A stretch of 64,000 nucleotides of DNA. Origin: Magnetococcales bacterium WMHbinv6. Lineage in GTDB: Bacteria; Pseudomonadota; Magnetococcia; Magnetococcales; Magnetaquicoccaceae. The stretch is taken from positions 1-64,000 of the forward strand of contig PDZV01000021.1 of assembly GCA_002753135.1 (NCBI GenBank), read 5' to 3'. A model generated the notes under the pieces. It was not told where the DNA came from. It saw only the letters and a program-made list of their open reading frames with translations, and ran no database searches. Position numbers and translations under genes: made by a program. Below are positions 16,485 through 57,842 of this stretch, in pieces (positions within the stretch are counted from its first letter, which is position 1; each line of letters starts with the position of its first letter).

Positions 16485-17012
16485 TCAGCCAAAAAGCCCG
16501 AGCAGGTTACGGCGGCTGATGCTTTTGTTCAGATGATCGGCCACCGATTGGTTGGCTCGAGAGGTTGCCTTTTTGCCGGAAACGACGGCGATTGCCTCTT
16601 CAAAGCTGTCCAAGTCGCGGGTAGAATTCATTAATATTTCAATGAAATGGTGTCCGACTTCCGGTTCCCAGGCGGTCAATACCGGAACCAGACGGTTTGG
16701 ATACTCCAGCAGTACCCCTTGGCCGGCAGCGACACGCCCGTCAGGATCTGCTGTCAAAGGCATGGCATGTCGAATTGGCGGTTCGGGTCGGCTCATGTCA
16801 TGCCAAAAAACCCGCTCCACCGCCCATGGGGTAACCAGCAGGGCGGGGATGGGGGCGTTAGGGAAGCTGTTTTCCATTTGCACACGAATATTCATGCGCC
16901 GATTGAGGGTAGGGTCGTCGGCTGGTCGACTCTGCAGAATCCGTTCGCAAGCGACCTTCAGGCCGACCGGATCGGGCCAGCGGCACTCCCAGCGGGGCGA
17001 ATCATTATTCAT
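16485..17012 (-). CDS. HybE-like protein (putative hydrogenase assembly chaperone)
   Basis: 175 residues. The central [14 protein letters not shown] aligns with the GxxITPW motif of HybE/HupJ-type [NiFe]-hydrogenase chaperones, and the C-terminus RRNLLGLFG resembles the RRALLFG end of HybE. HybE assists maturation of the hydrogenase large subunit, including Tat-dependent proofreading. No hydrogenase gene is in the window. Its start overlaps the thiSG stop (ATGA), so it is co-translated with a thiamine gene, which is unexpected. The family call rests on these short matches only. Confidence 0.45.
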
Positions 17013-18004
17013 GAGAAGAACATTCCATCCAAAGGGCTGGAGGCAGTGGCATAAAGTTTTTTCGGGATACGCCCGGCAAGATAGGCGTCGCGACCGGCTT
17101 CGACCGCCTTTTTCATCGCTCTCGCCATGCGTATGGGATCTTTGGCTCCGGCGATGGCGGTATTCATCAGCACGCCATCGCAGCCCAACTCCATGGCGAT
17201 GGCCGCATCGGAGGCGGTACCGACACCGGCATCGACCAGAACGGGTATGTTGGCCTGTTCAATGATGATGCGCAGGGTATAGGGGTTGCGGATACCGAGA
17301 CCGGAGCCGATCGGCGCTGCCAAGGGCATGACGGCGACACAGCCCATCTCTTCAAACAGTTTACACAGGTAGGGGTCATCGGTGGTATAGACCATCACCT
17401 GAAACCCCTCTTTGATCAGCAGTTCGGCTGCTTTGATGGTTTCCGGATTGTTGGGCCAGAGATATTTGGCGTCGGAGAGGACTTCCAGTTTGACCATATC
17501 CCAACCGCCTGCTTCGCGGGCCAGGCGCAGGGTGCGTACCGCCTCCTCGGCGTTGTAGCATCCGGCGGTGTTGGGCAGGTAGGTATATTTTTTTGGATCG
17601 ACAAAATCGGTGAGCATGGCGGCGCTGCGGTCACTGACGTTGACCCGTCGCACGGCGACTGTCACGATCTCGGCACCCGAGGCTTCAATGGCGCGGGCGG
17701 TCTCCTCAAAATCTTTGTATTTGCCGGTACCCACCAGCAGGCGACTGTTGAACCGTTTGCCAGCGATGATCAACGGATCGTCGTTTTCGTTTGCCGAACC
17801 GCCGCCAATAAAGTGGACCACTTCAATCTGATCCCCTTCACACAACTCGATGGCACTGAACTGACTGCGCGGCGCAACTTGCAGGTTGCGTTCCACGGCC
17901 ACTTTGTTGGCATCCAGTTGCATCGCATCCAGCAACTGTTGGATGGTGCTGTGGCGAGCGATGGACTGCTCTTCGCCGTTGAGGGTGATATGCATCGCGT
18001 TCAT
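17009..18004 (-). CDS. thiSG: Fused sulfur carrier ThiS - thiazole synthase ThiG
   Basis: 331 residues from ATG 18004, chosen because AGGAG lies 5 bp upstream. Residues 1-69 are ThiS, ending in the GGG that normally forms the thiocarboxylated C-terminus; ThiG follows without a stop or internal start. ThiG features: [14 protein letters not shown], the Schiff-base lysine in [10 protein letters not shown] (K172), [11 protein letters not shown] and [15 protein letters not shown]. ThiG makes the thiazole ring of thiamine from deoxyxylulose phosphate, dehydroglycine and the ThiS sulfur. In the fused state the ThiS di-glycine is internal, so the chain must be cut or the sulfur must be delivered another way. 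Confidence 0.93.
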
Positions 18005-18234
18005 GGTGGCTCCTGGCACACTGCTGCAGTAGGTGAAAGGGTGCGTTGCCCGGGCAACTCCGTGCGACGTACCCCGCATCGCCTGTTATTTTATCGATCT
18101 GTGGCGCTTGATCAATGAGAGAAAATGACCTGGCGTTGAAAAGGTGCTACAGTGGGGCTTCTTTTGCGCATTTTCCGTCCGGTGACATTCTGCCGTTCGG
18201 TGGGTAACAGGCTTTAACAGGGAGTCGCAGCCGT

Positions 18235-19362
18235 ATGATCAAGCGATTGTACATTTCCGGTTACAAGACGCTCGTTGACTTTGAGTTGCATCTGGATCGG
18301 ATGACCCTGCTGTTGGGACCAAATGGTTCCGGCAAGTCGGCGGTCATGGAGTGTTTGCTGCTGTTGAGGGAGTTTATTGTATCGGGGAAGAGTATTAAGG
18401 AGTTGATGCCGGATGTAGTCAGACCCTGTTTTGTTCGTGAGTCTGATTGGTTCCAAAAGATAGAGTTGGAAATTTATGGTAATGATGGATTATATTGTTA
18501 TCGAATGATTACTGAAGATGATTGGATGGGCTCTGTTGATATAAAAGAAGAAAGTCTATCGTTTAACAATAAACTTCAGTTTGAATACAAAGAGTATAAA
18601 CTTCACTATTATAATGATGGGAAACAAGATGGTGAGCCGTTGCCAAAGGACAATGAGCATTCCGTTTTCCAAATGCCGGTTGAAAAATTTCGTGTTACTC
18701 GTTTTCAATCTATTATAAAACGTATGGTTATTGTCCAACCTCAACCAAAAATAATGGAAGGTGTTAGCAGAAGACGGGAACTCTACCTGCAATCCAACGG
18801 CAGCAATTTTGCCTCCTGGTGGCACCACTTGATGATGACTGAAACGGGTTTGGTCATGGAGGTTTCCCAGAGATTGCAGGAGGTGTTTCCCGGATTTCAA
18901 TTCATGCAGATGAAGGTGATCGGTGAAAATGTCTTCAGTCTGATGGTGGTCTTTTCCATCCAGAAAAAGCGCATTGAAATTCCCTTTACCCAGCTCTCTG
19001 ATGGGCAAAAATGTTTGATTTTGTTGTATGCGCTGCTGGCGGCAATGCAACATGGCAAAGTGCCGATTCTGTTCATCGATGAACCGGAAAATTTTTTGGC
19101 CTTGCCGGAGATCATGCCCTGGCTCAATCAGCTGTTAAGCCAGTCGGAGGAGGAGCAGGCGCAAGGACAGTGTCTGCTGATTTCCCATCATCCCAAAATG
19201 ATCAACTTTCTCGCCTCGGCGTGGGGGCGTTGGCTTGAACGGGATCCGCTTAGCGGCGCTTCCAAAGCCTATCCGATTGCTGGCACCGCAGAGGAGGAGA
19301 AAGAAGGCGGCTTGCCGCTCTCCCGTCTGGTAGAGCGTGGTTGGATCATGGATGATGTGTAA
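18235..19362 (+). CDS. AAA ATPase, OLD/SMC-like (candidate defence ATPase)
   Basis: 375 residues. Walker A GPNGSGKS near residue 30, an ABC-type signature FTQLSDGQKCLILLYALLAA near 245-264, Walker B ILFIDEPEN and a switch histidine LISHHPKM. This is the layout of AAA_15/AAA_21 ATPases that power OLD, RloA, Septu and Gabija-like systems. The middle (about 60-185) is poor in hydrophobic conservation and AT-richer than its neighbours (18420-18750), which hints at recent acquisition. The next gene overlaps its end, suggesting a two-protein system. Confidence 0.8.
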   Translation: MIKRLYISGYKTLVDFELHLDRMTLLLGPNGSGKSAVMECLLLLREFIVSGKSIKELMPDVVRPCFVRESDWFQKIELEIYGNDGLYCYRMITEDDWMGSVDIKEESLSFNNKLQFEYKEYKLHYYNDGKQDGEPLPKDNEHSVFQMPVEKFRVTRFQSIIKRMVIVQPQPKIMEGVSRRRELYLQSNGSNFASWWHHLMMTETGLVMEVSQRLQEVFPGFQFMQMKVIGENVFSLMVVFSIQKKRIEIPFTQLSDGQKCLILLYALLAAMQHGKVPILFIDEPENFLALPEIMPWLNQLLSQSEEEQAQGQCLLISHHPKMINFLASAWGRWLERDPLSGASKAYPIAGTAEEEKEGGLPLSRLVERGWIMDDV

Positions 19363-19909
19363 CGCATGGGATCTGTCCGCTTATCAGGCGACCATCCTCT
19401 GTGAAGACCAAACACAGTATCGTCTGGCCAGAGAATTTTTGAAGCTGGGTAAAGTATCGGAGCGCAAAATTTATGATCGGATTGCCCCGCCTGGTTCGGG
19501 GAGTGGCAAGGCATGGGTGTTGAAACATGTGGCGCAAGAGGTCACTGAGTTGCGGAGGCGTGCTTCACGAACCTTGTTATTGATTGTGATCGATGCCGAT
19601 GAACAGGAGACAGAAGCGGCCTGCCGGGAAATTCGTTGTCGGTACGAGGCACTGCAACTGCCGGAACATAATCCGGTGATTGCCATTGTGCCCAAACGCA
19701 ACGTGGAGAGTTGGCTGCATTTTTTGCTGCGCGGTGAGATCGATGAAGAGCGGAGTTTTAAACGGCTCTATATGAAACAGCTCTCCTATAGAGATCAAGC
19801 AGCCAAATTGGTGCAGGTCGTGCGGTCTGTTGCGCAGGATGATCTTCCTCCCTCTCTGGCCATGGCCCGGCAGGCGTGGTTGCAGAGCGGACTATTTTCC
19901 CATCACTAA
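19352..19909 (+). CDS. Small TOPRIM-like partner of the AAA ATPase
   Basis: 185 residues from ATG 19352, which overlaps the ATPase stop by 11 bp (GTG 19337 and ATG 19355 are alternatives). An acidic residue in [17 protein letters not shown], a GSGSGKAW segment and the motif [12 protein letters not shown] resemble the Glu plus DxD metal-binding pattern of TOPRIM nucleases. A conserved-looking [13 protein letters not shown] follows. I do not recognise a named family; ATPase plus TOPRIM-like protein is the split form of the OLD nuclease architecture. Nuclease function is inference. Confidence 0.6.
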
Positions 19910-19923
19910 GAGAGCAAAAAACC

Positions 19924-20877
19924 ATGGGGCAATTGAGTGAGCGGCGGGTGTTGGTGACCGGTGGGGCCGGTTTTTTGGGGACACATTTGTGTGAGCGCTT
20001 GTTGCGTGATGGCTGTGATGTATTGTGTGTCGATAATTTTTTTTCCGCAACCAAGGGTAATGTGTTGCATCTGTTGGACAATCCCCGTTTTGAGTTGCTG
20101 CGCCACGATGTGACCTTTCCGCTGTTTGTTGAGGTGGATGAAATATTCAATCTGGCCTGTCCGGCCTCCCCGATTCATTACCAGGTGGATCCGGTGCAGA
20201 CCACCAAAACCAGCGTGCATGGCGCGATCAATATGCTGGGTTTGGCCAAACGGGTGAAGGCCAAAATTTTTCAGGCTTCGACCAGCGAGGTCTACGGCGA
20301 TCCGCAAGAGCATCCGCAACCGGAAAGCTATTGGGGCAACGTCAACCCCATCGGTCCGCGATCCTGTTATGACGAAGGCAAACGGTGTGCGGAGACCCTC
20401 TTTTTTGACTATCACCGCCAACACAAACTGCGCATCAAAGTGGCGCGTATTTTTAATACCTATGGGCCATACATGCACCGCAATGATGGTCGGGTGGTCT
20501 CCAATTTTATTGTCCAGGCCCTGCGCAATGAGCCGATTACCGTCTATGGCAGCGGCAAGCAGACGCGCTCCTTTTGTTATGTCGATGATTTGATCGAAGG
20601 CATCGTCCGTTTGATGCATTCGTCCGATGCGGTGACCGGACCGCTCAATCTGGGCAATACAGCCGAATATCCGGTGCTGATGTTGGCGGAAAAAATCATT
20701 GAACTGACCGGTTCCCGTTCCCAAATTGTTCTGCATCCACTGCCGGTCGATGATCCGCAACAGAGGCGTCCCGATATTACACAGGCAGAAAAACTGCTCG
20801 ATTGGCGCCCACAAATTGCCCTGGAAGAGGGGTTGCGAAGGACCATCGCCTATTTTGCACAAATTTTGTCAGCATAA
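19924..20877 (+). CDS. UDP-glucuronate decarboxylase (UDP-xylose synthase)
   Basis: 317 residues from ATG 19924. An extended short-chain dehydrogenase with the NAD-binding motif [10 protein letters not shown], the YxxxK pair in [21 protein letters not shown] and [11 protein letters not shown], all typical of UXS enzymes that convert UDP-glucuronate into UDP-xylose. The product feeds polysaccharide or lipopolysaccharide synthesis. It follows the ATPase/TOPRIM pair by 14 bp but probably has nothing to do with it functionally. Confidence 0.88.
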
Positions 20878-23017: not shown

Positions 23018-23281
23018 ATGGCACCGTTGCAGGTTGTGGAGGATGGGGAAGATATCGAAGGCGAACAGTTGCGCAATTTGATCGAACGGATTGAACGACT
23101 GGAAGAGGAAAAGGCGGTATTGGCCGACCATGTGCGTTCGGTGTATGCTGAAGCAAAATCGGCAGGTTTTGATCCAAAAATTATTCGCAAGGTCGTTCGT
23201 TTGCGCAAAATGGATCCCAGGGATGTAGATGAAGAAGAGACATTGATTCACATGTATAAACGGGCACTTGGTATGGAGTAG
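23018..23281 (+). CDS. gapR: Nucleoid-associated protein GapR (DUF2312)
   Basis: 87 residues. The segment LIERIERLEEEKAVLADHVR, then VYAEAKSAGFDPKIIRKVVR and LRKMDPRDVDEEE, matches the DUF2312/GapR family, a coiled-coil DNA-clamp that binds overtwisted AT-rich DNA ahead of forks and polymerases in Caulobacter. The family is largely alphaproteobacterial, which helps to place the genome. The start has GAGGTGG upstream; the 3' end overlaps the next gene by 14 bp. Confidence 0.92.
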   Translation: MAPLQVVEDGEDIEGEQLRNLIERIERLEEEKAVLADHVRSVYAEAKSAGFDPKIIRKVVRLRKMDPRDVDEEETLIHMYKRALGME

Positions 23282-24767
23282 CCTGGCATTGTTGCTGAGC
23301 AATCCTCTAACTTTCATGTTGTTTTTTCCCCTGTTGGGGGCGGTTGTCATTGGCCTGCTGCCGGTGCGGTTTGCGGGCCAAAGCCGTCGGATTGCTCTCT
23401 TTTGTTCTGGTGTGGTCTGGTTGTTGGCGTGGTCTCTTTTTGCTGTTTATGATTCTGCTTCGCCTACGGTTCAATGTCTGGAACGTCAACCTTGGGCCAC
23501 CCAGAGTGGTGGCACCTTTCTGCTGGGAATTGATGGTTTTTCTTTTCCGATGGTGTTGTTGGCCACCTCTCTGGCGGTGGTGGCCTTGCTGGCTTCGCAC
23601 GTCATTCGGGACCAATTGAAGGGCTATTACCTGTTCATGCTGTTGTTGGAAATGGGCATGTTGGGTGTGTTTATGGCGCAGGATTGGTCTCTTTTCTATA
23701 TTTTCTGGGAATTTACCCTGATTCCTTTGTTTTTTTTGATCAATCGCTGGGGTGGAGCGCGTCGTCAGCATGCGGCGTTGAATTTTGTGCTTTACACCAT
23801 GGGGGGGTCGGTTTTTCTGTTGATCGGCTTGTTGCTCGGTTTTGATGCGGCAGGTGCCGACTCTTTTGCCATGGAGGCGATGGCTGCAGGGTTGAAACAG
23901 GTGTCCCCGCAAACACAGTTGCTGATTTTTATGGGTTTTTTCTTGGGCTTTGGCGTCAAGATGCCGGTTTTTCCCATCCACGGTTGGCTGCCTCTGGCTC
24001 ATGTGGAGGCACCCAGTCCGGTCAGTATTCTGTTGTCCGGAGTGTTGTTGAAAATGGGTTCGTATGGTTTGCTGCGGGCGGCGGCGATGTTGCCTTTGGC
24101 CATGGTTGCCCTGCAAGGGGTGTTGCTGACCCTGGCGATGATTTCGCTGATCTATGGGGCGCTGTTGGCCTGGCGTCAGACCGATCTCAAGGCGATGGTC
24201 GCCTATTCATCGGTCAGCCACATGGGGGTGGTGTTGCTGGGGGTGGCAACGCTTAACAGTGCCGGTTTGTTGGGTGCGGTGACACAAATGGTTGCCCATG
24301 GCCTGGCGGCGGCGGCGATGTTTTTATTGGTTGGGCTGCTCTATCAGCGGACCCATAGCCGTGAAATTCGTGACTATGGTTCTTTGTTGACACAGGCACC
24401 ACGCTTTACCGTTTTTATTGCCATGGCTTTTGTTGCCGCCGTCGGTATGCCGGGCACGGTCGGCTTTATTGCTGAATGGCATGTGTTATTGGGTGGTTTT
24501 CAACAGTGGGGTGGTTGGGTGGTGCTGATCAGTATCGGGATGATGATCAGTGCGGCCTATTCGCTGCGCACGGTGAACCAATTGTGTAGCGGACCCGCCG
24601 CACCGCGCATGGCGAACGTGATGGATTTGACTTGGCCGGAGACGATTACCGCTGGCTTTTTAATGTTCTGGATTGTTTTATTGGGTTGTCTGGCAGCCCC
24701 TTTATTGCAACTCTCCGTGGCTTCGGTCGAACAATTTGTCCGCCTGTTTGCGGGGGCAGGGGCATGA
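23268..24767 (+). CDS. NuoM-like proton-channel membrane subunit (DAB cluster, subunit 1)
   Basis: 499 residues, about 14 membrane segments, Proton_antipo_M family. It keeps the key charged residues of complex-I antiporter subunits: Glu in IFWEFTLIPLFF (TM5), Lys in GFGVKMPVFPIHGWLP (TM7), Lys in LLKMGSYGLLR (TM8) and Glu in TVGFIAEWH (TM12). The start is uncertain: TTG 23268 overlaps gapR, and no better ATG exists before 23316. Its stop overlaps the dabA start (ATGA). No NADH- or quinone-module genes are nearby, so it should serve the DabA complex rather than complex I. Confidence 0.88.
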   Translation: MVWSSLALLLSNPLTFMLFFPLLGAVVIGLLPVRFAGQSRRIALFCSGVVWLLAWSLFAVYDSASPTVQCLERQPWATQSGGTFLLGIDGFSFPMVLLATSLAVVALLASHVIRDQLKGYYLFMLLLEMGMLGVFMAQDWSLFYIFWEFTLIPLFFLINRWGGARRQHAALNFVLYTMGGSVFLLIGLLLGFDAAGADSFAMEAMAAGLKQVSPQTQLLIFMGFFLGFGVKMPVFPIHGWLPLAHVEAPSPVSILLSGVLLKMGSYGLLRAAAMLPLAMVALQGVLLTLAMISLIYGALLAWRQTDLKAMVAYSSVSHMGVVLLGVATLNSAGLLGAVTQMVAHGLAAAAMFLLVGLLYQRTHSREIRDYGSLLTQAPRFTVFIAMAFVAAVGMPGTVGFIAEWHVLLGGFQQWGGWVVLISIGMMISAAYSLRTVNQLCSGPAAPRMANVMDLTWPETITAGFLMFWIVLLGCLAAPLLQLSVASVEQFVRLFAGAGA

Positions 24768-27700
24768 GTCATCCATCCTCTGCCTCCTCGGATCCACGTC
24801 TGCAGCACCTCAAAGAGTGGTTGCACCATTTGCCACACCATTTGCCTGGTCAGGCACCGATTCGTGATTTTATTCATCACAATACCTTGCATGGTTTTCA
24901 ACACCTTGCTTTCCCGGAGGCGCTGCGGCAGGCGGAACGGATTACCGGCATTCACGGTTATTGGCCGGGTGAGCAGTTTCGTGCCGCCTATCGTCAGGGG
25001 CGCATCAAGCGAGCCGATCTGGAGGCCGAGTTGTTGGCTGCCGCAGATCTGCAGGCAGAGCAGGTGATTGTCCCATCGGTTCAGGGGGGGATCCGTCGTT
25101 TGGATCTCTATCGTGAGGCCATGCTGCACGATGTGCGCTCCCTGCAGGCCAGCCAATTGCGCTGGCAAAAAGAGGAACAGCAGGCATTATCGCGACTGCA
25201 GGCGGATTTGTCGCCAGAAATGCGGCAGTTCTGGTTGCGTTGCGGCACAGAGGAGTCGGTGGTCTCCGGCCTGTGGCAGGCCTGCTTGCGACGTCTGAAG
25301 GTTGCGGAGAGCGAAACAGACCCGGAAGAACAATTAGAGGATTTGCTGACCTTTTTTGCCCCGGGATCAATGGCGGAAGAGGAGTTGGATCTGCGTCTTT
25401 TCGCTACCCTGGTGCGGGAAGAGGCAGAGATGGTGCTGGAAAAATTGCTAAAGAATCTGGGGGTCGAATCGACGTTCAGCGGCCTGCTGGCGCTGCTGAC
25501 CAGCGAAGATCCTTTTGACCATGTGCGACCTCTATTGCTGCGGCATGTGGCGGCCTATTTGGACCAGGGAGTGGCGGGCTGGAGCTATCCAGAGCGGGAG
25601 AACGGTTTTTGGTCGGCCTGGTGCCAGCAAGCGGGCAAGGATTGGTCCTTTTTGCCAGAAGAGTTGTCCGAGTGGAGCAGCGAACTGGAGGGGTTGTCGG
25701 AGGATGCCACAGAGAGTGTCATGATCTTGTTGACCCGCCTGGGCTTGCCGGAAAAACGCTGGACTGATTATCTGGAGCGGTTGGCGTTGCGCTTGCCGGG
25801 TTGGTCAGGCATGGTCATGTGGCGACAGCAACATCCCGGATATGAAGGCATCAGCCCGCAGCGGGTTGAGATGATGGATTATCTGGCGGTCAGCTTGATG
25901 CTGGAGCGGCTCTACTCTCTGCGCCTGTGTCGGAACGGTTGGCAGATTGATGCCCGGATTGAGTCGTTGCGGGAACATTTTCGCCAGCACAGCGCCGAAT
26001 TTCTCGTCCGCTGGTCGTTGTACAACGAGCCGTTGCCGGAGTATCTCGCCGAGCAGGCCGGGCGTATGCTGGCGCAATCGGCAGCCGATCCATTGAGCGA
26101 ACGACAATGGTATGCCCTGGCGCGCATGTTACGCATTGGCCATCAGGCACCGGGCAGAGACAAGCGTATGACGGCGCATGGTGATGTTTGGCCGTTGTTT
26201 CTTATGCTTCAGCATCTCGGGATGTCAGCAGATGCGCTGCTTGCCTTGACTGACCAGCAATGGACGATGTGGCAGGAGAGTTTGGCCCGGTTGACAGTGG
26301 ATCGTTGTGGTTATCTGTGGTTGCAAGCCTACGAACGCCATTATCGCAATCAGATTTTTAATGCGTTGCAGCAGAATCATGGCCGAGGGCGCTGGGCAAC
26401 CCGGCCCCATCGCCCCTCTGGCCAGTTGATTTTTTGCATGGATGAGCGGGAGGAGGGGTTTCGCCGCCATTTGGAAGAGGTGGCCCCGGAGCTGGAAACT
26501 TTGGGCGCTGCCGGTTTTTTTGGTGTGCCGATCTATTGGCAAGGATTGGATGATCACCGCTTTTCTGCCCTTTGTCCGGTGGTGGTGACCCCTGTCCATC
26601 AAATTCGCGAGTTGCCAGCAGAGGGGGCGGAAGCCGATCATGCGCTCTATCTCCGGCAACGGCGGCAGCGCTTGCGGTGGCAAGAGCAGCTGCATCAAGG
26701 AAGCCGCCTGGGATTGATCAGACCGTTGCTGGCCACGCTGTTGGCGGCACCGGGTGCGCTGCTGTTGTTGTTGGGTAAAATGGTCTCTCCTTTGGCAACA
26801 AGTCGTTTTTTGCAATGGTTGCAGCAGTTGCTGACCCAGCCCGTTGCGACCCGATTGTATTTGACCGCTCCGGTTGATGCGCCGGTGGCATCGACAGAAC
26901 AGCCCCGTTTGGGGTTGACTGATCATGAACAGGCGGGTCGGGTGGAGGGGTTTTTGCGCACCATCGGGCTGACCAACCAGTTTGCTCCGTTGGTCGTTTT
27001 GGTCGGACATGGTTCAATCAGCCAAAACAATCCCCATTTGGGAGCCTATGATTGTGGTGCCTGCAGTGGTCGTCATGGCGGGCCGAATGCGCGGGTTTTT
27101 GCCAGCATGGCCAATCGGCCTGTTGTGCGTCAATTGCTGCAGGCGCGGGGTATTACGATTCCGCAGGGGTGTTGGTTTATCGGTTTGGAGCATAACACGG
27201 CCAGCGAGGCGCTGGCATGGTATGATCTGGCAGGGGTGCCGGAGCCTTTGCGTCCGGCGTTGCAGCAGGTGCAAGAGGCCATGGCACAGGCCTGTGCCGC
27301 CTCGGCCCATGAACGGAGTCGGCGTTTGGCCTCGGCACCTCGCCATCCGACGCCGGGGCTGGCGCTGGCGCATGTGGCCGGACGAAGTGTGGATTTCAGC
27401 CAAGCCAGGCCGGAGTTGGGCCATGTAACCAATGCGGTGGCCTTGATCGGGCGTCGTGCGGTGGCGCAAGGGCTCTTTTTTGATCGCCGCATGTTTTTGA
27501 TCTCCTATGATCCAACCCAGGATCCGGGTGGTACCATTGTCGAAAACATTTTGCTGGCAGCAGGACCGGTGGGGGCAGGGATCAGTTTGGAGTACTATTT
27601 TTCCACGGTCAACAATGAGCGGTATGGCTGCGGTTCAAAAATTACCCACAATGTGACCGGACTGTTGGGGGTGATGGAAGGGGCTTTCTCCGATTTGCGT

Positions 27701-28030
27701 ACCGGTTTGCCCAAGCAGATGATTGAAATTCACGAGGCGATGCGTCTGTTGGTGATCGTCGAGCAGGATCCGGATGTGCTGACGGCAATTCATGGACGCC
27801 AGGCCCCGATACGCGAGTTGGTGGATAACGGGTGGATTGTCTTGGCAGCCAAAGAGCCGGAGAGTGAACATATTCATCTGTTTCGTCCGGGCCACGGCTG
27901 GCAACTGTGGAACGAGCCGTTGCAACCGTTGCCGACGGTTGCCCGTTCACAGGATTGGTATGCCGGTCGCGATGGACCGTTGCCGCCGGTTTTTGTTGCC
28001 CAAGCAGCGCCGAGTCACGCCCATGATTGA
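24764..28030 (+). CDS. dabA: Inorganic carbon transporter subunit DabA (DUF2309)
   Basis: 1088 residues from ATG 24764, coupled to the preceding gene. DabA is a cytoplasmic, membrane-attached, carbonic-anhydrase-like zinc protein that hydrates CO2 to bicarbonate in an energy-coupled way. The N-terminal IRDFIHHNTLHGF is typical. Zinc/catalytic residues: C558 and D560 in IFCMDERE, H749 in LVGHGSISQNN and C764 in YDCGACSGRHGGPNAR; the 15-residue H-C spacing equals that of Halothiobacillus DabA. The protein is longer than the Halothiobacillus protein, with about 200 additional residues before the first Cys. Confidence 0.95.
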   Translation: MSHPSSASSDPRLQHLKEWLHHLPHHLPGQAPIRDFIHHNTLHGFQHLAFPEALRQAERITGIHGYWPGEQFRAAYRQGRIKRADLEAELLAAADLQAEQVIVPSVQGGIRRLDLYREAMLHDVRSLQASQLRWQKEEQQALSRLQADLSPEMRQFWLRCGTEESVVSGLWQACLRRLKVAESETDPEEQLEDLLTFFAPGSMAEEELDLRLFATLVREEAEMVLEKLLKNLGVESTFSGLLALLTSEDPFDHVRPLLLRHVAAYLDQGVAGWSYPERENGFWSAWCQQAGKDWSFLPEELSEWSSELEGLSEDATESVMILLTRLGLPEKRWTDYLERLALRLPGWSGMVMWRQQHPGYEGISPQRVEMMDYLAVSLMLERLYSLRLCRNGWQIDARIESLREHFRQHSAEFLVRWSLYNEPLPEYLAEQAGRMLAQSAADPLSERQWYALARMLRIGHQAPGRDKRMTAHGDVWPLFLMLQHLGMSADALLALTDQQWTMWQESLARLTVDRCGYLWLQAYERHYRNQIFNALQQNHGRGRWATRPHRPSGQLIFCMDEREEGFRRHLEEVAPELETLGAAGFFGVPIYWQGLDDHRFSALCPVVVTPVHQIRELPAEGAEADHALYLRQRRQRLRWQEQLHQGSRLGLIRPLLATLLAAPGALLLLLGKMVSPLATSRFLQWLQQLLTQPVATRLYLTAPVDAPVASTEQPRLGLTDHEQAGRVEGFLRTIGLTNQFAPLVVLVGHGSISQNNPHLGAYDCGACSGRHGGPNARVFASMANRPVVRQLLQARGITIPQGCWFIGLEHNTASEALAWYDLAGVPEPLRPALQQVQEAMAQACAASAHERSRRLASAPRHPTPGLALAHVAGRSVDFSQARPELGHVTNAVALIGRRAVAQGLFFDRRMFLISYDPTQDPGGTIVENILLAAGPVGAGISLEYYFSTVNNERYGCGSKITHNVTGLLGVMEGAFSDLRTGLPKQMIEIHEAMRLLVIVEQDPDVLTAIHGRQAPIRELVDNGWIVLAAKEPESEHIHLFRPGHGWQLWNEPLQPLPTVARSQDWYAGRDGPLPPVFVAQAAPSHAHD

Positions 28031-29549
28031 AAAAGGTCTGCTCCTGGTCTCTCTTTTGCCGGCCATGGCAGCGGCCTGGATCGGCTTGGCACTGTTGTTG
28101 GGCTGGAGCCGTGGCGAGAGCGCGGAACGGCGGACGGCTTTTCTGGCCTCGTTGGCCAGCGGCCTGTCGTTGTTGCTGCTGCTGGGGATCGACCTGCAGG
28201 TGGCACTGCATGGTGGCACCCCCTATCCGCTGCCGGGGATTCCCTGGATGGAGAGCGTGGGGTATCGGGTGATGATCCAGTTTACGGTGGATCGGCTCAG
28301 TCTGTCGATGGCCACACTGGCCGCTTTGTTGGGCTGGTTGACCATCCGTTTTTCGGTCAACTATCTGCACCGTGAGGTTGGTTTTCATCGCTTTTTTGCT
28401 TTGTTGTCATTGTTTGTGGCCGCCTTGTTGCATTTTTTGCTGGCAGGCAATGCCGTCATGGCCTTTATCGGTTGGGAGATGATGGGGGTGACCTCCTATC
28501 TGTTGATCGGTTATGCCTTGGAACGCAGCCAGGCCAGCCAGAGTGCCACGCGGGTGATGGTAACCAATCGGGTCGGTGATGCCGGATTTACCGTCGCCAT
28601 TTTACTGGCCTTTGCCTGGTTGGGTGGCTCGGAGTGGCCTGTGCTGGCGCAGGCCTGGAGCCTGTTGAACTCCTGGCAGTTGGGCATTTTGTCGGCTGGT
28701 TTTTTGTTGGCCGCCCTGGTCAAATCGGCGCAGTTGCCCTTTGCCGCCTGGATTGGCCGGGCCTTGGAGGGTCCGACCCCATCGAGTGCCATTTTTTATG
28801 GATCGTTGATGGTTCATGCCGGCGTCTATTTGCTGCTGCGTCTGCAGGAGATGCTGCGCCATTCCCCCTTTTTGCTGACCCTGCTGGTCATTCTGGGTGG
28901 GCTGACGGCACTCTATGGTGTTTTGCTCGGCTTGGTGCAGACCGATGTCAAGAACGGCTTGATCGCTGCCACGCAAACCCAGGTGGGGTTGATGTTTTTG
29001 GCCTGTGGTCTGGGATGGTTTGATTGGGTGGCCTGGCATATGGCCGCGCATGCCGCCTGGCGGGCCTATCAATGGTTGAGCGCCCCCTCCTATATGCATA
29101 ACATGGTTGGGCCCACGTCGCCGACCTGGCAGGGGTTGCACCGTTTTCCCTCCCTTTATGCAGCGGCCTTGGCCCGCTTCTGGTTGGATCCGTTGACCGA
29201 CCAATTGCTGGTTCGTCCGACCCACTCCCTGGCCAAAGACCTGCAAAGTCTGGATGATCGCTTCATCAACCCTCTGTTGGGAAACGCTCCCTTGGAACGT
29301 CAGATATTGAGCCATGGCGGTCGCGTGGAGCAGTCATCGGTCAGTGGCATCGGTTTGCCTGGTCGGATTCTGCAACAAGTGGCCGAGTGGGCGCAGTGGG
29401 TGGAGGATCGTATTCTGAGTGTTGGCGGAGAAGGGATGGTCCAGACGGTGGGCAATCTGGGCCGCCATTTGGCGCGTATCGATCAACTGTTTAGTGAGCC
29501 GCGCTATTTGGTGTTGATGATCATATTGACCTTTGTTGCGATATTGTAG
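28023..29549 (+). CDS. dabB: NuoL-like membrane subunit, DabB (DAB cluster, subunit 2)
   Basis: 508 residues from ATG 28023 (MIEKGLLLVSLLPAM), overlapping the dabA end by 8 bp. Antiporter-type segments with Glu in AFIGWEMMGVTSYLLIGY and Lys in ALVKSAQLPFAAWIGRALEG, then VHAGVYLLLR. After about residue 340 the protein lacks the last bundle of NuoL helices and has a hydrophilic stretch with one C-terminal membrane segment, the pattern of DabB. In the described two-gene system DabB is thought to couple ion flow to DabA. Confidence 0.9.
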   Translation: MIEKGLLLVSLLPAMAAAWIGLALLLGWSRGESAERRTAFLASLASGLSLLLLLGIDLQVALHGGTPYPLPGIPWMESVGYRVMIQFTVDRLSLSMATLAALLGWLTIRFSVNYLHREVGFHRFFALLSLFVAALLHFLLAGNAVMAFIGWEMMGVTSYLLIGYALERSQASQSATRVMVTNRVGDAGFTVAILLAFAWLGGSEWPVLAQAWSLLNSWQLGILSAGFLLAALVKSAQLPFAAWIGRALEGPTPSSAIFYGSLMVHAGVYLLLRLQEMLRHSPFLLTLLVILGGLTALYGVLLGLVQTDVKNGLIAATQTQVGLMFLACGLGWFDWVAWHMAAHAAWRAYQWLSAPSYMHNMVGPTSPTWQGLHRFPSLYAAALARFWLDPLTDQLLVRPTHSLAKDLQSLDDRFINPLLGNAPLERQILSHGGRVEQSSVSGIGLPGRILQQVAEWAQWVEDRILSVGGEGMVQTVGNLGRHLARIDQLFSEPRYLVLMIILTFVAIL

Positions 29550-29555
29550 CCACCG

Positions 29556-31094
29556 ATGATGACGGAAATTGCCTGGAGTGAACAGAGCCGTTGGCCGATT
29601 TTGGCGGTATTGCAGTGTTTTCCCTTGTTGGCGGCACTGTTGCTTTCCCGTGTGCGCAACGATTGGCAGGCCTTCTGCTTGGGCATCGTGCTGGCGGTGA
29701 TCGAGCTGTTTGGAGCGATACAACTGTATCAGCAGTATGATCCGCAACAGGCGGCCTGGCAGTTGGCCGAACGGCTGACCATTTTGGGACCTTTTGCCTA
29801 CCATGCGGCAGCAGATGGCATGAGCGTGTTGTTTATTCTGCTGACCACCTTTTTGACCTGCATGGCCATTCCTTACGGCTGGGTCAGACCGTTTCGCCCG
29901 CAACCCCATTTTTTGACCATTCTGTTTTGTGCTGAGGCGGTTTTGATCAGTCAATTCGCCACGGTCGATTTGTTCTGGTTTCTGATCTGTTCGGTGCTGC
30001 AGATCGCTTTGGTTGGTCATTTGATGCAGCGCTGGTCTGCGTCGGCGGATGAGAGGCTTTCCCTGAACCGTTTTTTTCAATTCATGGGTATTGGCCTGTC
30101 CATGCTGCTGGCGGGCACGCTGATTTTGGGATGGTCCCATTTTGATCAGACCGGTCGCTGGAGTTTTGATTTGCTGGATCTGTTGGCCAATCCGTTGCAT
30201 TCTTTTTTAAACGTTAGTGTCTTTTTCTTGTTGTTTTATGGTTTGGGCATTCGCGTTCCGTTGTTTCCGTTGCACGGTTGGTTGCCGTTGGTTGCCGAGC
30301 GGGGCACCGTGGTGTTGGCACTGGTTATTCTGTTGGGGGTCAAAACCGGTTTTTACGGCATGCTGCGTTTCATGATGCCGTTGCTGCCGGCATCGGTCTA
30401 TCGTTGGCAATGGGAGGTGGTCATGATTGCCACCATCGGCATTTTTTATGCGGCCTGGCTGGCAACCATGCAACAAAATTTGCGGCGCATGATGGCCTAT
30501 GCCGTGATCAGTCATACGGATATCATCGTCATCGGCCTGTTTACCACCCATGCCCACGCCCTGCAGGGATCGTTGCTGCTGATCGGTAACGTCGGTTTGG
30601 CGGCGGCCACCCTCTTTTTTATGATCGGTCTGATCAATCGGCGCACCAAGACGGTCATGTTGGCGCAGCTTGGCGGGTTGTTTGGCCGTATTCCACTGAT
30701 TGGCATTGCTTTTTTTGTTGCTGGTCTGTCGGTGATCGGCATGCCGGGAACGCCGGGGTTTGATGCGACGCACCTGTTGATGGAGGCTGCCATGCACCAA
30801 TTCGGTGCGTTGATTACCATTGCCGCCGCCTTGGGCAATGTGGCCTCGGCAGCCTTTTTGTTGTGGTCTTTTCAACGCGTCTTTCTGGCATCTCCCGGCC
30901 AACGTCCTGTGCCCGTCGAGACAGACAGTCAAACCAAATGGATGGAGTCAGTGTTGGCCGTCATTCTGATTGTGGTCCAGTTGACAGCCGGTTTTTATGC
31001 CGAGCCCTGGTTAAAGCTGGTGGACAAAACGGCCCACAGCATGGCCTCGCCCTATGTCTACCAGGCAAATGAGGCGACCGAGAGGCGGAATTGA
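29556..31094 (+). CDS. Divergent NuoM/N-like membrane subunit (DAB cluster, subunit 3)
   Basis: 512 residues, many membrane segments, antiporter family. It differs from its neighbours in the channel: the TM5 Glu is missing (FWFLICSVLQIALVG in place of FWE), the TM7 Lys is Arg (GIRVPLFPLHGWLPLV), the TM8 Lys remains (GVKTGFYGMLRF) and the TM12 acid is Asp (TPGFDATHLL). This suggests a structural or altered-coupling role. ATG 29556 or 29559; it overlaps the next start (TGATG). Confidence 0.85.
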   Translation: MMTEIAWSEQSRWPILAVLQCFPLLAALLLSRVRNDWQAFCLGIVLAVIELFGAIQLYQQYDPQQAAWQLAERLTILGPFAYHAAADGMSVLFILLTTFLTCMAIPYGWVRPFRPQPHFLTILFCAEAVLISQFATVDLFWFLICSVLQIALVGHLMQRWSASADERLSLNRFFQFMGIGLSMLLAGTLILGWSHFDQTGRWSFDLLDLLANPLHSFLNVSVFFLLFYGLGIRVPLFPLHGWLPLVAERGTVVLALVILLGVKTGFYGMLRFMMPLLPASVYRWQWEVVMIATIGIFYAAWLATMQQNLRRMMAYAVISHTDIIVIGLFTTHAHALQGSLLLIGNVGLAAATLFFMIGLINRRTKTVMLAQLGGLFGRIPLIGIAFFVAGLSVIGMPGTPGFDATHLLMEAAMHQFGALITIAAALGNVASAAFLLWSFQRVFLASPGQRPVPVETDSQTKWMESVLAVILIVVQLTAGFYAEPWLKLVDKTAHSMASPYVYQANEATERRN

Positions 31095-32611
31095 TGGATG
31101 CGATTGCCATAACCATGGCCCCCTTTCCTTTGTTGAGCCTGTTGATCGGCCTGCCCTTTGTGGTGGCGCTCCTGCTGTGGTTGTTGCCGGTGCAGCAGGC
31201 GCGTGCGGCGGCGGTTCTGACGGCTCTGCTGCAAAACGGCCTCTCTCTTCTCCTGGTCTGGGGTTTTGATGCGGAACAAAACGGTTTTCAATGGGTGGAG
31301 CGGGCCGAGTGGCTGCCATCGGTCAACGTACACTATTTTGTGGGTGTGGATGGCCTTGCCCTGTTGTTTGTGCCACTGACGGCGCTGTTGTTTCTGGGAT
31401 TGCTGCTCTCTTCCCGTCCCTCCCGGATGCCCAGACTCTATTATGCCTTGATGCTTGCCCTGTCCGGCATCAGCATTGCTATTTTTTCGGCGTTGGATCT
31501 GGTGCTGTTTTTTCTCTTTTGGGAATTGACCCTGATTCCGATCTATTTTTTGGTCAGTTATTGGGGAGTCGGACCGCAACGACGTTTTGCCGCAACCCAG
31601 TACACGCTGTGGATGCTGGCAGGTGGCGCGATGATTTTGTTTGCGTTTGTGTTGCTGGCGGTGGGCCAGCAGGCGCAGGCAGCGGGGACAATCCTGGAAA
31701 TTGCCAAAAAGCTGCCGATTTTTTCCTTGCCCACCTTGTTGAGCAACCCTCTGGCTGTGGATCGGCAAGTGCCGGTTTTTCTGTTGTTGGTGCTGGGCTT
31801 TGCCATCAAAACCCCGGTGGTGCCGCTGCACGTCTGGTTGCCGGTGATGGCGATGGAGGGGCCGGTGGCGTTGCTGGCCATGATGACCGGTTTAAAATTG
31901 GGAGCCTATGGACTGCTCCGTTTTGCCATGCCGTTGGCTCCCCAGGCGGCGCTGCAATGGTCCTGGCTGCTGGCCGGGTTTGCGGTTGTCGGCATCTACT
32001 ATGGGGCGTTGATGGCTTTCAATCAGAGCAATTTGCGCCGTATGCTGGCCTATTCCAGTATCAGCCATGTCGGTTTGGTGTTGCTGGGCATTTCGACCAT
32101 GACGGTGCAGGGTATGCAGGGGGCGCTGCTGCAACTGTTCAACTTTACCCTCATTGCCAGCGGGCTTTTTCTTTTGTCCGGCTATATCCATCGCCGCACC
32201 GACTCGTGTGAGTGGTTGCATTTGGGTGGTTTGGTCCGTTCCATGCCGTTTGCCACCGCGCTGTTTCTCTTTTTTGGCCTGGCGGCCATGGGGTTGCCGT
32301 TGACCTCCGGTTTTCCGGCTGAACAATTGATTTTATTGGGAACCATCTCCCTGCACAAGGGGGCGGCATTGGCGGCGGTGGGGGGGCAAATTTTGGGTGC
32401 TGCCTATTTTCTGCTCTTTTATCGGCGGGCCTTTTTGGGGCCGGTTGTCCACCGTGTTGTGGCCGAGGCAACCGATCTGCAGGGGGCGGAGCGTTGGAGT
32501 TTGTTGTTGCTGGCCTTGCCTGTGCTGGTTTTTGGTCTGTTTCCGGGGTGGCTGGTCCACTTCAGCCAATTTCCGGCGCTTGATTGGGTGGCCCGTTTTA
32601 CCATTCCCTGA
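31094..32611 (+). CDS. NuoM-like proton-channel membrane subunit (DAB cluster, subunit 4)
   Basis: 505 residues from ATG 31094. Complete set of channel residues: Glu in LFWELTLIPIYFLVSYW, Lys in GFAIKTPVVPLHVWLP, Lys in GLKLGAYGLLRF and Glu in FPAEQLILLG. It is closest in layout to NuoM and to subunit 1 of the cluster, from which it may have arisen by duplication. Last gene of the operon; its stop lies 5 bp from the stop of a convergent gene. Confidence 0.88.
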   Translation: MDAIAITMAPFPLLSLLIGLPFVVALLLWLLPVQQARAAAVLTALLQNGLSLLLVWGFDAEQNGFQWVERAEWLPSVNVHYFVGVDGLALLFVPLTALLFLGLLLSSRPSRMPRLYYALMLALSGISIAIFSALDLVLFFLFWELTLIPIYFLVSYWGVGPQRRFAATQYTLWMLAGGAMILFAFVLLAVGQQAQAAGTILEIAKKLPIFSLPTLLSNPLAVDRQVPVFLLLVLGFAIKTPVVPLHVWLPVMAMEGPVALLAMMTGLKLGAYGLLRFAMPLAPQAALQWSWLLAGFAVVGIYYGALMAFNQSNLRRMLAYSSISHVGLVLLGISTMTVQGMQGALLQLFNFTLIASGLFLLSGYIHRRTDSCEWLHLGGLVRSMPFATALFLFFGLAAMGLPLTSGFPAEQLILLGTISLHKGAALAAVGGQILGAAYFLLFYRRAFLGPVVHRVVAEATDLQGAERWSLLLLALPVLVFGLFPGWLVHFSQFPALDWVARFTIP

Positions 32612-56295: not shown

Positions 56296-56329
56296 AAGGG
56301 GCGTGGCCGATCATTCGGTCACGCCCCTT
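56296..56329. terminator. Strong hairpin after the ankyrin gene
   Basis: AAGGGGCGTG (56296-56305) pairs perfectly with CACGCCCCTT (56320-56329), extended inward by CCG/CGG. It lies 37 bp after the ankyrin stop and at the edge of the IS630 remnant. No long T-tract follows on the plus strand; on the minus strand GCGGACTTTTG follows. Probably a bidirectional terminator. Confidence 0.6.
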
Positions 56330-56800
56330 GGTGTTGTGCGCGCCCGGCAGGGCGCATCCTTTTGGCGGTATTGTAATGAATCTCAAGGCGATCCAGTAAA
56401 CGTCTGGCTTCCTTTGGCTCAAACGCCTGATACAGCGATGCTGGCTTGTGGGTGTTCAGGTTGTCCATAACGGGGACAACTTTCTCCGCATCAGGGTATT
56501 GATCATCAACAATTTCCCGAAGAAGTTCTGCAAAATCAATTGCCGTTCGGCGATCTGTAACCTTGATACTCCTCTGTCCAACCTGGGGTTCAGAGTTTAT
56601 GAAGATGTGTGCCGTCTGGGTGATTTTCTGCACCGATCCTTGGCCGGTCTGCTGAACTGGCTGATCATCTTCCAGGAAAACAACGATGGATGGCAGTTGA
56701 TCCGGCGTTTCTTGGATGGCCGGAACACCCCATGAGGAGGAAATCTCCACCTGTGACAGGCATTTCCGAAGCCGGGAGAGGATCAGTGGGGCCAGCATTA
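56319..56800 (-). pseudogene. IS630-family transposase remnant
   Basis: The minus strand encodes a frame with VPVMDNLNTHKPASLYQAF, then EPKEARRLLDRLEIHYN and upstream DRRTAIDFAELLREIVDDQY, the central DDE region of IS630/DDE_3 transposases. The expected continuation after EIHY (a TPKHGSWLN-like segment with the last acidic residue) is missing, and the N-terminal helix-turn-helix part is absent, so it is a non-functional fragment. No inverted terminal repeats were found. Confidence 0.8.
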
Positions 56801-56879
56801 AATAGTTGTGCATCGCGCAACATCAAAAAGTAGAATATGAGTAATGACTTGTGCCAACGGACCTGATATTCTTGGCCCC

Positions 56880-57842
56880 ATGAACGAAATCTTCCAACCT
56901 CATGATCTCCTCTTCAAGACTCTCATGTCGCATCCAGAGACTGCTGGAGGCTTCCTGCAGGAGCATTTGCCGCCAGAGCTATCCCGGCTGCTCGCACCGG
57001 AACCGCCACAACCGGTGGAAGGGACTTTTGTCGAAGAGCATCTGCGGCCCTACTATTCAGATCGCCTGTTCGAAGCCAAAACCATCACCGGCAAGCCGGT
57101 GTCGCTCTATTTTCTGATCGAGCACAAGAGCTTTGAAGACAACAGGGCAGCTTGGCAGCTCTTCCAGAGCATGTATGCTTTCATGAAGCAGAAAACCCGC
57201 GAAAACAAAAAATGGCAGAAACTGCCAGCCATGGTACCGTTACTGCTCTACCATGGGGAAAAGGAGTGGCGGTTCCCGAACGAATTCCTGGCCTTAATCG
57301 ATGCAGACGAAGCCATTACACCATGGCTGCTGAATTTTCGCTTCCCGGTGGTTGACCTGAGCGTGATCCCAAACCAGCGTCTTGCCCAAGAATCTCGATT
57401 GTACGCTGGATTTTTGGCCTTAAAATATGGTACCCGTGATCCAAAAGAACAGATGGAGGTCCTGGAGGAACTCATCCTCGCTATGGTAAACGCGCCAGAT
57501 CTGTTTGTATCGATGGTCCTTTACCTTTTGACAACTTTCCCGTATTTACGGGAAGAGCACGTGCGGCAGATTGTCAGCCGCGTCAAACCTCAGGAGGAAG
57601 CCGAAATGATGTCACAGTTCGCGCAGGAAATTTTGGCCAAGAACAAACCGGAATGGCTTTCTGTGGGCCGTCAGGAGGGAGAGGCAAAAATTCTGATTCG
57701 CCAACTCCAAAAACGCTTTGGCGACCTTCCGCCCTGGGCCAACCAGAAAGTTGCTGATGCCGACTCTGCCACCCTGGAAAACTGGAGCATTCGTCTTTTG
57801 GATGCCAAAAGCCTGGAAGAGGTATTCGCCGATCCGTCTTGA
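56880..57842 (+). CDS. Rpn/YhgA-family PD-(D/E)XK nuclease (transposase_31)
   Basis: 320 residues from ATG 56880 (MNEIFQPHDLLFKTLMSHPE); ATG 56844 is an alternative. The N-terminal PHD..FK segment, the Asp/Glu-rich core YYSDRLFEAKTITGKPVSLY and FLIEHKSFEDNRA (PD-(D/E)XK-like D...EHK) are typical of RpnA-type recombination-promoting nucleases. These are often multicopy, mobile-associated genes. It lies between an IS remnant and a phage-like fragment. Confidence 0.88.
   Translation: MNEIFQPHDLLFKTLMSHPETAGGFLQEHLPPELSRLLAPEPPQPVEGTFVEEHLRPYYSDRLFEAKTITGKPVSLYFLIEHKSFEDNRAAWQLFQSMYAFMKQKTRENKKWQKLPAMVPLLLYHGEKEWRFPNEFLALIDADEAITPWLLNFRFPVVDLSVIPNQRLAQESRLYAGFLALKYGTRDPKEQMEVLEELILAMVNAPDLFVSMVLYLLTTFPYLREEHVRQIVSRVKPQEEAEMMSQFAQEILAKNKPEWLSVGRQEGEAKILIRQLQKRFGDLPPWANQKVADADSATLENWSIRLLDAKSLEEVFADPS

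Follow-up and report, generated by a model that had tools for sequence, protein, structure and literature searches.

Two overlapping genes of Magnetococcales bacterium WMHbinv6 encode an ABC-type ATPase and a small TOPRIM-like protein, and they belong to a broad, strictly paired family of patchy distribution. We consider it probable that the pair is a self-contained conflict module, with the ATPase as sensor and restrainer and a toxic metal-dependent RloB-like TOPRIM nuclease as effector. The window, meaning the whole stretch of 64,000 nucleotides analysed (contig PDZV01000021.1), contains the two genes in the following arrangement.

18235-19362, plus strand: ABC-type (OLD/RecF/Rad50-like) ATPase, 375 aa, assigned from Pfam, structural model and fold matches
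19352-19909, plus strand: small RloB/TOPRIM-like putative nuclease, 185 aa, assigned from conserved residues, model and profile alignment
19352-19362, plus strand: 11-nt gene overlap (ATGATGTGTAA), the first ATG of the small gene lying at 19352

The first-pass annotation described an ATPase gene overlapping that of a stand-alone TOPRIM-like nuclease, and the reading frames, motifs, conserved residues and model all agree with this. Most homologous pairs overlap also, by up to about 30 nt, and the overlap in the window makes it likely that the two genes are translationally coupled.

Scanning genome contigs with the ATPase alignment gave 377 relatives, and the 80 best were taken further. Loci were selected by similarity of the ATPase only, and 84 independent ones were left after removal of five that had been collected twice. 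In 80 of them a homologue of the small gene lies directly behind the ATPase gene; at the remaining four (L076, L078, L092 and L101) other genes occupy that position. A scan of the contigs with the small protein as a single query gave no match. When both proteins were searched for separately in 61 genomes they were found in the same nine, at ten places each and always adjacent. The pairwise distances of ATPase and nuclease co-vary (Mantel r = 0.84, equalled in 0 of 2000 permutations), with the shared ancestry of the hosts contributing to this correlation. We clustered five neighbors per side in a search for a third conserved component, and none was shared consistently across lineages.

The ATPase matches the Pfam family AAA_21 (1.2e-17). 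Its model has a pLDDT of 91, and the fold matches the heads of Rad50, PtuA and OLD with E values of about 1e-11 to 1e-12. TsOLD (6p74) is found in fold searches with both proteins of the pair. The nucleotide-binding elements are as follows.

18316-18339, plus strand: Walker A, GPNGSGKS (aa 28-35); G28, G31, G33 and K34 invariant in 85 homologues
18994-19008, plus strand: ABC signature, LSDGQ (aa 254-258); S255 and G257 invariant
19066-19092, plus strand: Walker B and catalytic Glu, ILFIDEPEN (aa 278-286); D282, E283 and P284 invariant
19183-19194, plus strand: H-switch, SHHP (aa 317-320); S317 and P320 invariant, H318 in at least 90%

An OLD/RloA-like ATPase with an LSDGQ signature had been noted, and the Walker A, Walker B and H-switch sequences are present in addition.

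The small protein has a set of conserved acidic residues.

19403-19405, plus strand: putative metal-binding Glu, E18; 77 of 78 sequences
19592-19600, plus strand: DAD motif (D81 and D83); 78 of 78 sequences
19706-19747, plus strand: E119xW121 and E132; E119 in 77 of 78 sequences, W121 and E132 in 78 of 78, the E.W aligning with the E.W of RloB

The Glu and DAD motifs noted in the original reading of this 185-residue protein are therefore essentially invariant, and since E18, D81 and D83 are kept in at least 77 of the 78 sequences, the LCED...VIDAD pattern is not due to chance. In the TOPRIM arrangement a glutamate follows strand 1 and a DxD motif follows strand 3 of a beta-alpha-beta-alpha-beta-alpha-beta core. 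The model of the small protein (pLDDT 92.5) has alternating strands and helices, with strands at residues 12-17, 40-44, 74-79 and 109-112. E18 lies just after strand 1 and D81xD83 just after strand 3, and thus the placement in the model is that of a TOPRIM domain.

Direct matches to known proteins are few. Neither Pfam nor NCBIfam contains a family that matches the small protein, and a sequence search against solved structures gave chance matches only. Comparing the model with solved structures by Foldseek gave a weak match to TsOLD (E = 0.09, TMq 0.39), with lumazine synthase ranked higher for its general topology; among viral models the best match was RloB-like (E = 0.14, TMq 0.43), with none below 1e-3. 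Profile alignment by hhalign to RloB from relatives covers 104 columns with p = 3.6e-4, an HH probability of 37% and about 16% identity, and it aligns motif for motif, CED with CEG, DAD with DRD and E.W with E.W; a reversed-profile control gave p = 0.17. The corresponding values were p = 2e-3 for DUF4435, the AriB type, and p = 1.5e-3 over 51 columns for one real HEC-01B. Taken together, sequence and model place the small protein as TOPRIM-like and apparently nearest to RloB, yet distant from all of these, in a distant relation rather than membership. The earlier reading, which did not recognise it as a named defence family, holds; its PADLOC matches are marginal. True RloB (PF13707) is common in the order to which the window belongs (13 genomes with a match; loci L199, L201, L203, L204, L206, L207, L209 and L210), and it is absent from the genome of the window.

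The central part of the ATPase gene differs in base composition from the remainder.

18412-18768, plus strand: AT-rich, probably replaced middle segment (aa 60-178), marked by a drop in both GC3 and identity

Moving along the gene, GC3 is about 0.7, falls to 0.1-0.5 over codons 60-178, and returns to about 0.65. Within the segment 33 of 119 codons end in G or C (0.28), compared with 168 of 256 (0.66) elsewhere in the ATPase (Fisher p = 6e-12). In 11 other genes of the window no stretch of 119 codons falls below a GC3 of 0.42, and the window ATPase is the extreme of the 85 homologues, with a difference of -0.39 against -0.12 for the next. Identity to its closest relative (L030, in genome G006) is 0.33 inside the segment and about 0.7-0.75 outside, with the same borders as the change in GC3. 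Only one of 300 pairs of similar flank identity has a lower identity in the middle. A path length of 2.69 separates the window ATPase from L030 over the middle, compared with 0.43 over the flanks.

Across the family generally no part of the ATPase varies more than the middle, and the middles of the window protein and L030 are still the best match of each other, at 32%. Fast evolution accounts for part of the drop in identity, but not for the base composition. Judged from composition and identity, the best account is that the segment was probably replaced through recombination with an AT-richer allele. A tree of the middle alone gave no supported partner for the window sequence that would indicate a donor. 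The AT-rich middle had been taken as a sign of gene transfer; the AT-richness is real and sharper than claimed, but it points to replacement of one segment and not to transfer of the whole gene. It is conceivable, if on balance doubtful, that aa ~60-178 of the ATPase form an exchangeable recognition lobe, which is recombined as a cassette within an unnamed, island-independent immune module. Swapping the lobe would then alter the signal that is recognised and leave the ATPase core and the nuclease as they are, in the manner of the exchanged specificity subunits of restriction systems. A fast-changing lobe in a conserved ATPase offers a testable guess for where such ATPases read their trigger.

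The pair has the following neighbors and features at its borders.

17012-18004, minus strand: ThiS/ThiG-like thiazole synthase, left neighbor, named by reading the sequence; orthologue in 15 of 18 family genomes
18087-18127, plus strand: promoter-like conserved box to the left of the cassette; 83-88% identity across ~40 nt among the genomes of the genus that were compared
19910-19923, plus strand: right junction of 14 nt from the nuclease stop to the downstream start codon, seen in the sequence; similar spacing in G006
19924-20877, plus strand: UDP-glucuronate-decarboxylase-like NAD-dependent epimerase, right neighbor, named by reading the sequence; orthologue in 16 of 18 family genomes

The pair is found between the ThiS/ThiG-like and epimerase-like genes in the window genome and in G006. 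In three genomes of the same genus (G005, G001 and G003) the site is empty, with only 205, 303 and 439 nt, respectively, between the flanking genes; G003 and G005 carry copies of the pair elsewhere. Since the box is kept on the left at the empty sites, the cassette is placed to the right of the box and before the start of the epimerase gene. Insertion of the pair at this site is the simpler reading, with loss in G001, G003 and G005 as the alternative. Between the window genome and G006 the pair is 54-57% identical and both flanking genes are 88-89% identical, and thus the pair evolves much faster. The ~40-nt box, ATTTTAT.GATCTG..TTGA.CAATGAGAGAAAATG, is also present between the ThiS/ThiG-like and epimerase-like genes at four other loci (L112, L113, L129 and L021); it is strongly conserved in the genus, and may be a promoter or regulatory element. 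Elsewhere in the window, 23268-32611 contains a 1132-aa DabA/DUF2309-like protein flanked by several NuoL/NuoM-like membrane subunits, read from the sequence as a possible inorganic-carbon uptake cluster, and 56319-57842 contains a minus-strand transposase-like fragment next to a transposase-like protein of the Rpn/PD-(D/E)XK type (332 aa), also by reading.

The distribution of the pair is patchy. It is present in 9 of 61 relatives, in 23 of 196 genomes of a cyanobacterial order and in 6 of 77 of the Chlorobium order. Among 398 genomes sampled from the phylum it occurs in seven, all within the window's own order. The ATPase tree requires 24 changes of phylum, against a least possible 13, and its supported branches mix phyla. 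Transfer between phyla is the simplest reading, although wrongly binned contigs could add some of the changes, and the pair has spread as one unit across at least a dozen bacterial phyla. A second copy in the window's own genome (L029, on contig C73, 8659-10280) falls in another clade, indicating separate acquisition. Two genomes (G541 and G596) contain remnants that lack an ATPase, indicative of decay of the module. Patchiness, the cross-phylum tree and the empty sites are all in accord with the mobility proposed for the pair, and we found neither a house-keeping family that the small protein matches nor a universal pair or a fixed house-keeping site.

A scan of viral contigs with the ATPase alignment, together with a phage search, gave no relative. 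A plasmid search gave no nuclease homologue and no pair, with two distant ATPases only. One distant ATPase (L197; CP070234.1, 71681-82652) lies on a conjugative Dolichospermum plasmid, adjoining a VapC toxin gene and apparently without a nuclease gene. The 146 nearest neighbors across the family are mainly house-keeping, with local synteny between the pair and its neighbors within cyanobacterial clades; the defence-like genes among them are one HEC-01A, one methyltransferase, one PsyrA and two SoFic. For comparison we took 120 proteins out of arbitrary stretches, a small control drawn from fewer genomes. It gave a comparable PADLOC scatter, mostly reverse transcriptases, and against it there was no enrichment of defence genes among the 146. 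Clustering of homologous pairs in defence islands, which had been put forward as a check, was thus not borne out. The family is not typically resident in such islands, and modest enrichment remains compatible with a control of this size. With neither defence-enriched neighbors nor a pair in phage or plasmids, a role in defence is argued from family resemblance and from the behavior of the pair as accessory genes. On that basis we regard an anti-phage role as likely.

We infer a cycle for the conflict module comprising a complex, its inhibition, a trigger, a substrate and a defensive outcome. The co-translated proteins would associate with each other, and the ATPase, when bound to ATP, would keep the nuclease inactive. 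Once a phage product acts on the ATPase, possibly on the variable middle lobe, the nuclease would be released or activated. It would then cut host nucleic acid, RNA (for example tRNA, as for AriB) being slightly likelier than DNA, and growth would stop before phage release. Strict pairing, co-varying divergence, residue conservation, the TOPRIM-like model, the RloB profile match, the resemblance of the ATPase to HEC-01A, AriA, AbiLi and mad3, patchiness, the changes of phylum on the tree, empty sites, decay, fast divergence and the precedent of AAA-neutralised toxins support a conflict module. This reading is weakened by the lack of defence enrichment, the house-keeping neighbors, the absence of a viral or plasmid pair and the weakness of the fold matches to the small protein.

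Three other explanations have to be weighed against this. In a genome-maintenance or repair pair the RecF/Rad50-like ATPase would load the TOPRIM nuclease onto DNA that has been damaged, and neither would serve in defence. Rad50 is among the best fold matches of the ATPase, the neighbors, which show local synteny in cyanobacteria, are house-keeping, and an OLD-family ATPase, archaeal Cran1, is reported to have a role in the cell cycle and apparently none in defence (PMC12796447). A repair function is nevertheless difficult to reconcile with a pair that is absent from most close relatives, lies at differing sites, transfers across phyla, decays in some genomes and diverges far faster than the genes beside it, and we think it unlikely. 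Fast divergence, mobility and the overlapping two-gene layout would equally be expected of a selfish toxin-antitoxin system, with a nuclease toxin and an ATPase antitoxin kept by post-segregational killing and not by phage defence. AAA ATPases do neutralise RloB-type and TOPRIM_OLD toxins in E. coli assays of AbiL and RloB-type pairs (PMC10440598), and layout alone cannot discriminate between the two functions. Yet we found only the two distant ATPases, and no pair, on plasmids, where addiction would pay most, and this explanation is rather less probable again.

The remaining explanation concerns identity rather than function, namely that the pair belongs to HEC-01, a candidate family of PADLOC in which the ATPase HEC-01A is joined by HEC-01B. 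The window ATPase resembles HEC-01A, AriA, AbiLi and mad3; HEC-01A is its best PADLOC match (5e-25, 86 bits), HEC-01A and PDC-M25A both outscoring AriA, and HEC-01B models are the sole matches of the small protein (1e-3 to 4e-3, 17 bits). However, a true HEC-01A among the family neighbors scores 2e-135, and the ATPases of the family score at about the same level against PDC-M25A, AriA, AbiLi and HEC-01A, with AbiLi models matching 70 of the 85 ATPases and AriA models 72 of 85. At most four of ten small proteins touch any one HEC-01B model, the best at 2e-4, and the alignment to a real HEC-01B is confined to its 51 columns. Membership of HEC-01 is improbable, and a conflict module distinct from it is the reading we prefer.

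The ATPase and TOPRIM functions are split between two chains here, as the first-pass annotation stated, but it overstated how unusual this is, since PARIS, AbiL/RloAB and other AAA and TOPRIM pairs are split too. OLD class 1 and Gabija GajA have the same type of ATPase and the same TOPRIM residues in a single chain, and in the window there is no GajB-type helicase beside the pair. OLD-ABC/TOPRIM dyads are also found beside BREX (PMC12839542). PARIS, a class 4 OLD system, is likewise a split pair of ABC ATPase and TOPRIM nuclease, AriA and AriB (PMC10568477), AriB being a two-metal nuclease that cleaves tRNA (PMC12409363). By comparison, the window small protein has no AriB/DUF4435 match, and AriA, at 464 aa, is longer than the ATPase by about 90 residues and is not its best match. 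HEC-01 provides the nearest PADLOC matches of both proteins, but both score far below true members and the similarity to HEC-01B is marginal.

RloA/RloB and AbiL, the latter comprising AbiLi and the RloB-type TOPRIM_OLD toxin AbiLii, likewise combine an ATPase with a small TOPRIM-type protein in two genes, and the motif order CE[D/G] ... DxD ... P..E.W is common to RloB and the window small protein. The Pfam RloB model nevertheless matches none of 10 members at E<=0.1, nor the window small protein at E<=1, and we saw no association of the window family with restriction-modification genes. Since the defining matches of PARIS, HEC-01 and Pfam RloB are lacking, we file the pair as an unnamed family. 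Current defence annotation would miss this broad family or scatter it over several labels, because it is not a typical resident of defence islands and its small protein is recognised by no model. We conclude that the pair is probably an unnamed relative of known anti-phage or toxin-antitoxin pairs of the RloAB/AbiL and PARIS type, and that it probably works like them.
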